This document shows positions 28,924 through 31,364 of a stretch of 61,412 nt of DNA, piece by piece. Within the stretch, counting starts at the first letter, position 1, and the number at the start of each line of letters is the position of its first letter. The translations under genes were made by a program, and so were the position numbers. The notes under the pieces were generated by a model. That model was not told the DNA's origin. It saw only the letters and a program-made list of their open reading frames with translations, and ran no database searches. Origin of the DNA: Herminiimonas sp. (GTDB lineage Bacteria > Pseudomonadota > Gammaproteobacteria > Burkholderiales > Burkholderiaceae_D); assembly GCA_014377845.1 (NCBI GenBank), contig JACMOV010000177.1, positions 1 to 61,412 of the forward strand, read 5' to 3'.

Positions 28924-28952
28924 ACGTTAATGCGTCGCACCAATCCGGTCAA
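28924..28952 (-). promoter_or_regulatory. Possible promoter for ilvB-ilvH-ilvC
   Basis: On the minus strand TTGACC (28952-28947) and TAACGT (28929-28924) are 17 bases apart. The -35 is good and the -10 weak. It predicts a leader of about 310 bases. The whole 28606-29119 gap otherwise holds only the palindrome, the hairpin and the upstream region of the divergent sigma-factor gene. Confidence 0.45.
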
Positions 28953-29119
28953 GTCATATCGGGCGAAATCCGTTTGAAATCAACGATTTTCGGTGGCGGA
29001 TACGCACAGTCGTGCGCTTATTTGCTAGTATGCCGACAGTTTCAAACGGCAAACATCGCGCGCCTGCCGACGTTCCCATTACACACGTTCCCATAACGTC
29101 GCACCCAGAGCAGCAACGC

Positions 29120-29689
29120 ATGGCCACCGAAAAAGAGCTTTCCGACTTCCTCGAAAACGTCGAGCGACGCGCCTTCAAGCAGGCGGCCTATGCGGTCCGC
29201 AAGGACGAATCCGCGCTCGACATCGTGCAGGATGCGATGATCAAGCTGGCTGACAAATACGGTGACAAACCGGCGGCCGAGCTGCCCATGCTGTTCCAGC
29301 GAATCCTCCAGAACACGATCCACGATTACTTTCGTCGCGAAAAAGTCCGCAATACCTGGGTCAGCCTCTTTTCCAGCCTCGCGGGAAACCGTGCCGACGG
29401 CGAGGATTTCGATATACTAGAAACGTACGAGTCCGAAGGCGGCAGCGAGTCTTCGGAATCGAGTGCGGACAAGGTCGAACGGGACCAAATGCTGGCCGCC
29501 ATCGACGCCGAGGTACAAAAACTACCGACGCGTCAACGGGAAGCGTTTCTCATGCGTTACTGGCAGGATATGGATGTGGCTGAAACAGCCGCTGCGATGG
29601 GATGTTCCGAGGGAAGCGTGAAAACGCATTGTTCTCGCGCAACACACTCCCTGGCCACTGCCCTGCGAGCCAAAGGAATCACGCTATGA
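29120..29689 (+). CDS. RNA polymerase sigma factor, ECF-like (sigma-70 family)
   Basis: Alternative sigma factor of 189 residues from ATG 29120 (MATEKELSDFL). Region 2 is visible at ~15-80 (ALDIVQDAMIKLADKYGDK, then LFQRILQNTIHDYFRREKVRNTW). Region 4 lies at ~135-180 (LPTRQREAFLMRYWQDMDVAETAAAMGCSEGSVKTH, quoted in part as QDMDVAETAAAMGCSEGSVK), a helix-turn-helix for the -35 element. A long acidic, Ser-rich linker (~85-125) joins them. There is no sigma-1.1 or sigma-3 region. Its stop overlaps the next gene as ATGA. An upstream open frame reaches 29012, but ATG 29030 falls inside a possible -10 box, so the internal start is preferred. Confidence 0.9.
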   Translation: MATEKELSDFLENVERRAFKQAAYAVRKDESALDIVQDAMIKLADKYGDKPAAELPMLFQRILQNTIHDYFRREKVRNTWVSLFSSLAGNRADGEDFDILETYESEGGSESSESSADKVERDQMLAAIDAEVQKLPTRQREAFLMRYWQDMDVAETAAAMGCSEGSVKTHCSRATHSLATALRAKGITL

Positions 29690-30102
29690 ACCAAGCTATG
29701 ACCGCCAAGGAAGTCAATTTCGCCTACAAGGTCCGGCATGCCCTGAACGAGCATGCAGAGGCACTGCCCGCCGCCACGGTCGAGCGTCTGGGCGCGGCCC
29801 GCAAGCTGGCGCTGGCGCACAAGAAAAAGGATGCGCCGCTGCGGGCATTGGCCACGCGTGCCGTTTTCGCGGGTCCGGCCGGTGCGTTTTTCGAACAACC
29901 CCTGTCGTGGCTCGGCCGCATAGGTGTTGCAGCACCCCTGGTCCTGGGTGCTGCGCTGTTCGTCGGCATGTATCAGTCCGCGCAGCAGGAGCGGGTCAAT
30001 GAGCTGGCGGATATCGATGCGGCGGTGCTGGCCGACGAGTTGCCGCTGTCTGCCTATCTCGACCATGGATTCAATGCTTATTTGGCCAAGCGAGCTGATT
30101 GA
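29686..30102 (+). CDS. DUF3619 single-pass membrane protein, candidate anti-sigma factor
   Basis: Protein of 138 residues whose ATG overlaps the sigma-factor stop (ATGA). Residues 1-~77 are charged and probably cytoplasmic. One transmembrane segment spans ~78-96 (IGVAAPLVLGAALFVGMYQ), and a short acidic tail of ~40 residues is predicted periplasmic. This N-in, one-pass layout and the overlap are what anti-sigma factors of ECF modules show. No zinc-binding (ZAS) motif is seen. The assignment to DUF3619 is from recognition of the family in this gene order; the anti-sigma role is inference. Confidence 0.8.
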   Translation: MNQAMTAKEVNFAYKVRHALNEHAEALPAATVERLGAARKLALAHKKKDAPLRALATRAVFAGPAGAFFEQPLSWLGRIGVAAPLVLGAALFVGMYQSAQQERVNELADIDAAVLADELPLSAYLDHGFNAYLAKRAD

Positions 30103-30851
30103 TGGCGTCTGATGGTTCCGGTTACCATGCCGCCCGCCTTCCGCGGGCGGCGTGCGTTTCGGCACTCGCTTCGCTGACAGCGTCGCTTCTGGTGCTGTTG
30201 GCGGGCGTGTTCGGTGCATCGAACAGCCTGGCGGCGGGTGGCAGTGCATTGCCGCAGGTGCCCCTACCGACGGCAAGACCGGTATTGAAGGCGCCGATTG
30301 TCAACCCTGCCTGGAAAGAACTTCCGCCCGCGCAACAACAGGCGTTGTCACCGCTGGCAACGGAATGGAACTCGCTCGACGCCGCACATAAATCGAAATG
30401 GCTGGCGATCGCCCGCAAGTTTGAAACGATGAAGCCGGATGAGCAGAACCGCATCCAGGAGCGCATGCGTGCATGGGTCGCCCTGACGCCGGATCAGCGC
30501 CGCGTTGCGCGCGAGAGCTACACCCGTACCAAGAAACTGAACACCGACCAGAAATCGGCGCAGTGGCAGCAATACCAGCAATTGCCAGAAGAGCAAAAAA
30601 AGCTGTTGGCGGCCGAAGCGGCGAAGAACAAGGTAGCGACACTGCCGCCATCGCACAGCAAGCCGAAGTCGGTTCCGCCGATTAAATCGGTCCAGAAACC
30701 GGCGCTGCAACAATCCATCATGCCGACATCGCTCGTGAAGCCTGCTGCGCCGCCGCCTGCCGTAACGCCTGGATCGCCACCGGCATTGGCACCTGCTGCG
30801 CCAGCACCCGCTCCGGCGGCCGCCATCGTGCCGCCAGCCATCGAAAAATAA
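30102..30851 (+). CDS. DUF3106 exported protein with 18-residue repeats
   Basis: Predicted periplasmic protein of 249 residues; its ATG overlaps the previous stop (TGATG). A hydrophobic signal sequence covers ~15-45. Residues ~71-166 hold six degenerate units that begin at residues 71, 89, 107, 125, 143 and 158, for example WKELPPAQQ, WNSLDAAHK, FETMKPDEQ, WVALTPDQR and YQQLPEEQK. The pattern aromatic-x-x-L-x-P-D-Q recalls the LTxxQ motif of CpxP/Spy-type periplasmic proteins. The last ~70 residues are Pro/Ala-rich and probably disordered. A sensor or modulator role for the sigma/DUF3619 pair is inferred. Confidence 0.8.
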   Translation: MASDGSGYHAARLPRAACVSALASLTASLLVLLAGVFGASNSLAAGGSALPQVPLPTARPVLKAPIVNPAWKELPPAQQQALSPLATEWNSLDAAHKSKWLAIARKFETMKPDEQNRIQERMRAWVALTPDQRRVARESYTRTKKLNTDQKSAQWQQYQQLPEEQKKLLAAEAAKNKVATLPPSHSKPKSVPPIKSVQKPALQQSIMPTSLVKPAAPPPAVTPGSPPALAPAAPAPAPAAAIVPPAIEK

Positions 30852-30854
30852 CCG

Positions 30855-31364
30855 ATGGCAATGCAGATTGCATCGACGCCCCCGCTCAAGCGCCGCCTTG
30901 CGTGCATGCTCTACGAATCGCTGTTGCTGTTCGGCGTGATCTTCATCGCCGATGCCGCTTTCGACATCCTGACGAACAGCCGGCATGCCTTGTTCCTGCG
31001 CGGTGCGCGCCAGCTCTGGCTCTTTCTCGTAATCGGCGCCTATTTCACGTTTTTCTGGTGCCGGACCGGGCAGACGCTGGCGATGCAAACCTGGCGCCTC
31101 CGCGTGATCCCGGTGTCCGGCACCAAGCTTCCACTACGAAACGCGATCCTGCGCTATGTACTTGCATGGATGTGGTTCCTGCCAGCCATGGTGATCGACT
31201 ATACGTTCGGATTGAAGCAGTGGCCGAGCGTGATCGTGATCGTCGGCGGCATGCTGCTGTGGCTTGCCGCAACACGCCTCGACAGTGACCGTCAGTTCCT
31301 GCATGACCGCCTCGCCGGCACCCGCCTTGTCGACATGCCGAAAACGCCATCGGTCATGGCGTGA
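30855..31364 (+). CDS. RDD family membrane protein
   Basis: Small membrane protein of 169 residues with three to four transmembrane segments (ESLLLFGVIFIADAAFDIL; ARQLWLFLVIGAYFTFFW; VLAWMWFLPAMVIDYTFGL; VIVIVGGMLLWLAA). The family Arg-Asp positions are seen as R13-R14 near the N-terminus (PLKRRLACMLYES) and in the C-terminal SDRQFLHDRLAGTRLVD. The family is of uncertain function; some members are linked to Na+ or solute transport. It starts 3 bases after the DUF3106 stop and completes the sigma-factor cassette. Confidence 0.87.
   Translation: MAMQIASTPPLKRRLACMLYESLLLFGVIFIADAAFDILTNSRHALFLRGARQLWLFLVIGAYFTFFWCRTGQTLAMQTWRLRVIPVSGTKLPLRNAILRYVLAWMWFLPAMVIDYTFGLKQWPSVIVIVGGMLLWLAATRLDSDRQFLHDRLAGTRLVDMPKTPSVMA

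Follow-up and report, generated by a model that had tools for sequence, protein, structure and literature searches.

Organization of the locus

The DNA studied here is a stretch of 61,412 nt from Herminiimonas sp. (assembly GCA_014377845.1, contig JACMOV010000177.1; own genome labelled G000), referred to below as the window. It contains four genes of the same direction (plus strand), encoding an extracytoplasmic function (ECF) sigma factor, a DUF3619 protein, a DUF3106 protein and an RDD membrane protein, which form an operon. The sigma factor gene shares a stop/start overlap, ATGA (29686..29689), with the DUF3619 gene (29686..30102), which points to translational coupling; the latter overlaps the DUF3106 gene (30102..30851, from the ATG at 30102) in the sequence TGATG (30100-30104), and a gap of 3 bases separates DUF3106 from the RDD gene (30855..31364). 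The span 29012..31364, both overlaps and the gap, given in a preliminary description of the locus, were all recovered on re-reading the sequence, as were the coordinates of the single genes.

The ECF identity of the first gene product was borne out by its score of 286 bits against NCBIfam NF006550/PRK09047 (curated cut-off 173) and by a match to Pfam Sigma70_r4_2 (2e-16); Sigma70_r2 scored 23.5 bits, slightly below its cut-off of 24. The start at 29012 given in the preliminary description is probably not the true one, the listed ORF (open reading frame; 29012-29689) being 36 codons too long. ATG 29120 is the most likely start of the protein (29120..29689; MATEKELSDFL, 189 aa), because this segment lies at or near the start of most of 12 aligned relatives, and because the 36 upstream codons hold a conserved sigma-70-type extended -10, the putative promoter element of the operon (TGCTAGTAT, 29023..29031, plus strand). 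The three other assignments were all well above the Pfam gathering cut-offs: DUF3619 (PF12279; 7e-38, 130.4 bits, cut-off 22.2), DUF3106 (PF11304; 3.1e-31, 108.4 bits, cut-off 24.3) and RDD (PF06271; 1.4e-14, 55 bits, cut-off 24.1).

Conservation of the gene arrangement

The distribution of these families was analyzed in 150 genomes of the order of the window, Burkholderiales by its named members. DUF3619 was found in 107 genomes; DUF3106 and the sigma factor (over the cut-off) were each found in 109, and all three together in 105; among the remaining 45 genomes, 38 had none of the three and 7 had one or two. For adjacency, one place per genome was counted (additional places of DUF3106 and a single piece of DUF3619 were left out), using sigma matches only over the cut-off and the other families at E ≤ 0.001. 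DUF3619 and DUF3106 were adjacent in 105/105 genomes, and the sigma gene adjoined DUF3619 in 105/106, the sole exception being G114, in which the sigma gene is cut by contig ends. With starts picked nearest to the overlap, the 4-nt overlap of sigma and DUF3619 genes was present in 83/108 order loci and 33/52 other loci.

The arrangement extends beyond the order. In a sample of 229 genomes of the class, DUF3106 was located at most 1.5 kb downstream of 56 of the 62 non-order sigma matches (E ≤ 1e-40, two order genomes excluded), and an iterated DUF3619 profile recovered the middle gene in 52 of these 56 loci. The 68 non-order DUF3106 matches, second repeats in one protein omitted, include 12 without an upstream sigma match. 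In a set of 80 named loci (Herbaspirillum, Janthinobacterium, Massilia, Burkholderia, Ralstonia, Cupriavidus and others) all four genes were found in order in 72; the eight misses were due to contig ends (3), no DUF3619 match (4) or no RDD match (1). This arrangement is far from chance, and neighbours varying freely among relatives, named in the preliminary description as grounds for refutation, were not observed: sigma, DUF3619 and DUF3106 stay together.

The RDD protein had been proposed as an effector or transporter. It was found downstream in 83 of the 105 order loci with enough sequence and in 0/56 loci outside the order; it is a lineage-specific add-on outside the core, an accessory found here only within the order.

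DUF3619 and DUF3106

The DUF3619 protein of the window, as judged by eye, comprises a cytoplasmic part (residues ~1-76), a transmembrane (TM) helix (~77-96) and an acidic periplasmic tail (97-138, ~42 aa), in agreement with the charged N-terminus, single TM helix and short tail noted before. The N-terminal part was more positive than the tail in 106/106 order and 51/52 other DUF3619 proteins, two fused DUF3619-DUF3106 genes being excluded from this count, and the charge pattern predicts an N-in orientation. The best 19-residue Kyte-Doolittle window reached at least 1.6 in 80/106 order and 47/52 other proteins, so the hydrophobic helix stands out in the majority but not in every one. Across 34 aligned sequences (alignment A2), L35, R39 and A42 of the basic N-terminal part are invariant, and in order proteins the tail ends in the conserved D..LL..DLP..AY.D.GF..WL, while outside the order it is chiefly the N-terminal part that remains recognisable. 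When the members of this alignment were compared with Pfam (E ≤ 1), 33/34 matched DUF3619, and the 11 families matched included no anti-sigma model, and so none of class I (RseA/zinc type).

DUF3106 holds helical repeats of the W..L(T/P)P.QR type (alignment A1) and an export signal, seen by eye. In two genomes of one genus (L089 and L111) DUF3619 and DUF3106 form a single reading frame. Since the fused DUF3106 part follows the TM helix, DUF3106 is placed on the periplasmic, tail side of DUF3619, and these natural fusions, together with the export signal, support its proposed role as an exported periplasmic partner or sensor. The suggested likeness to CpxP/Spy-type sensors (CpxP/Spy/CnrX; LTXXQ, Metal_resist) found little support: beyond a shared LTPEQ-type motif nothing specific was found, hhalign gave 1.2% probability to Spy, and Pfam matches were weak and non-specific. 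A model of the DUF3619-DUF3106 fusion had a confident helical DUF3106 part and a low predicted template modelling score (pTM 0.36); a structure search with it yielded no convincing fold match and, among the matches listed, none of the CpxP/Spy/CnrX fold.

In one order genome (L137) a lone TAG is all that interrupts a common reading frame of the sigma factor and DUF3619, and reading this codon as Q gave a linked protein for structure prediction. The AlphaFold2 model (mean predicted local distance difference test, pLDDT, 77.9; pTM 0.59) placed DUF3619 helices at 225-245 and 250-267 and the sigma factor in a closed form, at 2.8 Å to RpoE-NepR, 3.7 Å to SigW-RsiW and 3.6 Å to CnrH-CnrY (4cxf) over 143-149 residues. 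The distance was 12.1 Å to sigmaE-RseA (1or7) and 21-28 Å to sigma factors in transcription complexes with both domains aligned. Foldseek alone returned the same families with weaker fits (5.8-10.2 Å for RpoE-NepR, SigW-RsiW and CnrH-CnrY, ~27 Å for transcription complexes).

Comparison with known systems

The closest characterised look-alike is SigAb-AabA-AabB of Acinetobacter baumannii, described in 2025 as Acinetobacter-specific. In the available part of that report (PMC12153292), AabA has one TM helix and a cytoplasmic part that inhibits SigAb, AabB is periplasmic, and the mapped SigAb promoter consists of -35 GTCAAC and -10 CGTT with a 17-bp spacer, 16 being tolerated. Compared by description, the two loci agree in gene order, the sigma gene overlapping that of a one-TM protein, which in turn overlaps that of an exported protein, and the SigAb promoter form is found upstream of the present sigma family too, in some non-order loci. 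Anti-sigma activity has been demonstrated for AabA, which was modelled as CnrY-like (PMC12153292). Unlike the present locus, the SigAb system as described there has an AabA of 107 aa and a copper signal, with no RDD protein mentioned in the available text, and its promoters were reported before sigAb, relA, sabS and cysTW. The proposal that DUF3619 is a one-pass anti-sigma factor has in its favour co-conservation, gene overlap, topology, the closed sigma2/sigma4 arrangement of the linked model and the SigAb-AabA precedent.

CnrY-CnrX-CnrH of Cupriavidus metallidurans likewise combines a small anti-sigma factor, a periplasmic sensor and an ECF sigma factor, and CnrH is held closed by two wrapping helices of CnrY, a class II anti-sigma factor (PMC4598750, as far as available; PDB 4cxf). 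It differs in gene order (cnrY-cnrX-cnrH) and in its sigma factor, which is 28% identical. The logic of sigma factor, membrane anti-sigma factor and periplasmic modulator is also shared with sigmaE-RseA-RseB (PMC12153292, available part). In that system, however, RseA has 217 aa and sits between sigma2 and sigma4, and the promoter differs.

RpoR of C. metallidurans (Rmet_0910; paralogue RpoQ), which probably lies beside ilvI as here, may be an orthologue; a literature search for the neighbours Rmet_0907-0913 found nothing. RpoQ and RpoR have been linked to thiol and copper homeostasis, and the available parts of these reports mention neither an anti-sigma factor nor a DUF3106 partner for RpoR and discuss a double mutant (PMC11022561, PMC13192273).

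The preliminary description called the module a candidate undescribed one. As to the names DUF3619 and DUF3106, absent from the literature searched, this is correct; as to the kind of system it is not, given SigAb-AabA-AabB. Apparently new in that literature are this large family, its DUF3619 and DUF3106 components and the predicted regulon of small proteins described below; the sigma group may already stand in the ECF re-classification (NAR 2021).

Promoters and predicted target genes

The extended -10 pattern TGnTAnnnT was present at -150..-10 in 77/80 named and 74/109 order regions (5.5 and 9.6 in mononucleotide shuffles), and in 8/56 regions outside the order (4.4 in shuffles). The 109 order regions count two genomes twice (L011/L138, L016/L137), and many are only ~150 nt long. 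The SigAb-type motif GTCAAC-N16/17-CGTT precedes the sigma gene in 18/56 non-order, 2/109 order and 0/80 named regions (expected from mononucleotide shuffles, 0 to 0.1); when gapped word pairs in the 56 non-order regions were counted with no pattern set beforehand, GTCAAC/CGTT proved the most frequent. The motif is absent before the sigma gene of the window.

Target genes were sought with the pattern GTCAACC-N15/16-CGTT followed 30-60 nt on by ATGAARAA, the reversed pattern serving as control. There were 12 matches in 10 of the 150 order genomes and 38 in 32 of 90 genomes of the window's family, whose nearest named loci are Noviherbaspirillum and Herbaspirillum; the reversed pattern gave 0 in both sets. 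Of the 12 order places, 11 had their downstream genes read (L316, with a 25-aa frame, stands apart), as did 32 of the 38 family places. Among 38 examined frames, 33 encode proteins of 40-119 aa with a signal-like start, commonly Lys/Ala-rich, and five are shorter than 40 aa (L316, L324, L335, L337, L340); export signals were judged by eye, and since the pattern itself imposes MKK or MKN as the start, it is biased towards signal peptides. By eye, two of the frames resemble PsiF, and an additional site lies before the gene for a 218-aa protein that looks like an OmpA-type lipoprotein. The site in the window's own genome (G000:C154:104050-104140, minus strand) lies before the gene for a 70-aa protein, and a DUF192 gene comes next.

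The leaders of the predicted targets contain a perfect stem of at least 5 bp within the first 40 nt at 26 of 40 distinct sites, compared to a mean of 6.4 and a maximum of 10 in 50 shuffle runs. This hairpin is perhaps an mRNA stabiliser or an operator. Its sequence differs between lineages (L308-L346).

The motif was also seen before other genes. In two non-order genomes, G201 (L280) and G224 (L279), it precedes similar-looking lipoprotein genes, of which that of L280 matches DUF4382; in G201 this motif and the sigma promoter share a strand and are ~2.6 kb apart. In two order genomes, G105 (L278) and G061 (L289), it lies 37-50 nt before the ATG of similar hydrophobic proteins resembling, by eye, major facilitator superfamily transporters, ~22 kb from the sigma gene. 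Two sites in the window's genome, G000:C66:4218-4243 and G000:C143:12730-12756 (L276, L282), are ~60-90 nt upstream of genes for a ComEA-like exported protein and a small c-type cytochrome (by eye).

Proposed mechanism and alternatives

We consider it likely that the operon encodes a switch consisting of an ECF sigma factor, an anti-sigma factor and a periplasmic modulator. In unstressed cells, two cytoplasmic helices of DUF3619 would bind the sigma factor and hold it closed at the inner membrane, as CnrY does CnrH, and the exported helical DUF3106 would bind the conserved acidic periplasmic tail of DUF3619. An envelope signal would change the contact between DUF3106 and the tail, upon which DUF3619 would release the sigma factor by conformational change or proteolysis. 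The freed sigma factor would direct RNA polymerase to GTCAACC-N15/16-CGTT promoters, a link that we infer for the window's genome; prominent among the targets predicted in its family is a small exported protein, rich in Lys and Ala, with a hairpin at the start of its mRNA. Conservation, topology, fusions and the characterised look-alike make the sigma/anti-sigma/periplasmic reading well supported; gene content, co-conservation, charge topology, natural fusions and motif enrichment are directly observed, and from them binding of DUF3619 to the sigma factor and a signalling role of DUF3106 are inferred.

A wider proposal appears to us evenly balanced between right and wrong: that one SigAb-type switch, with DUF3619 as anti-sigma factor and DUF3106 as periplasmic sensor, occurs widely both in the window's order and across other orders of the class, and that in the window's family it controls small cationic exported proteins with a protective mRNA hairpin, which together make up a regulon for envelope protection. 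The finding offers testable functions for two uncharacterised protein families and brings scattered sigma genes together in a single system, for which it predicts a promoter code and a new regulon consisting of small basic exported proteins. Should it be true, the 'Acinetobacter-specific' SigAb is one branch of a widespread envelope response, open to study in harmless soil bacteria.

Several results weigh against the switch mechanism. The closed sigma form in the linked model is suggestive rather than proof, because SigG1, solved without a separate anti-sigma factor, also fits closely (3.4 Å over 137 residues); the closed form might be predicted even without DUF3619. With hhalign, no homology was found between DUF3619 and a single CnrY sequence (0.6% probability) or between DUF3106 and CnrX (0.8%). 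Most order upstream stretches (100-300 nt) lack the motif and have a sigma-70-type promoter, so that autoregulation was not seen there. Genome-wide, counted in forward and reverse, the motif alone was not in excess over the reversed pattern in six genomes (motif/control: G000 4/6, G007 10/8, G061 6/9, G105 5/14, G201 4/10, G224 4/6), and the target claim rests on the motif plus the start codon. This combination occurred in 10/109 sigma-positive and 0/41 sigma-negative order genomes, a weak link (Fisher p = 0.06), and in the family in 31/85 sigma-positive and 1/5 sigma-negative genomes (G437, 86% complete). Finally, in order loci the covariation between DUF3619 and the sigma factor did not favour the cytoplasmic part (a share of 0.48 among the 25 top pairs vs 0.47 expected).

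In the covariation between DUF3619 and DUF3106, pairs in the order lean to the tail (0.60 of the top 25 vs 0.35 expected; 0.37 of the top 200), and the non-order group (52 triples) showed no preference. Over all 156 triples the top pairs sit on the tail with both partners, a pattern that we attribute to the division into order and non-order proteins. L136 and the fused genes were excluded from these sets.

The most probable alternative keeps the same switch and changes the release: as in sigmaE-RseA-RseB, DUF3106 would shield the DUF3619 tail from a periplasmic site-1 protease, and regulated intramembrane proteolysis would free the sigma factor. The short, acidic tail with its conserved end and the fusions that tie DUF3106 to it speak for this route. 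The tail is, however, much shorter than the periplasmic domain of RseA. According to the available part of the SigAb report, moreover, the cytoplasmic fragment of AabA alone still inhibits SigAb (PMC12153292), and therefore cleavage would need further degradation; we regard this route as plausible, at somewhat below an even chance.

It is unlikely that a different ECF sigma factor recognises the GTCAACC-CGTT sites of the order and that the module controls other genes. Many of these genomes have several ECF-type genes, the motif is missing from most order sigma operons, and one family genome has a match to the target pattern and no sigma match. Against this stand the motif before the present sigma gene in 18 non-order and two order loci, the region 4 segment MGCSEGSVKTH, nearly identical between order and non-order sigma factors of the aligned set, and the presence of the sigma factor in all 10 order genomes with matches.

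That DUF3619 is a membrane anchor for DUF3106, its sigma gene merely co-transcribed, is very improbable: the lack of a covariation preference for the cytoplasmic part with the sigma factor and the existence of DUF3619-DUF3106 fusions, with a sigma-DUF3619 fusion in none of 108 order and 56 other loci, would fit it, but the near-constant adjacency of the sigma gene, the persistence of mostly the N-terminal DUF3619 part outside the order and the AabA precedent (PMC12153292, available part) speak against it.

Other promoter candidates upstream of the sigma gene

Two further ECF promoter candidates were rejected. Matches to a GGAA[C/T]-type promoter were scattered (9 in all) and not conserved. The sequence GTCAAG-N17-CGTT of the window was discarded since its GTCAAG corresponds, in reverse, to the -35 element of a divergent sigma-70-type promoter that is conserved. 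This promoter, TTGACC-N17-TAACGT (28924-28952, minus strand), faces an acetolactate-synthase-like gene (ilvI, by eye). Its exact form, TTGACC-N17-TAnnnT, was found in 0/56 non-order, 32/109 order and 44/80 named regions.

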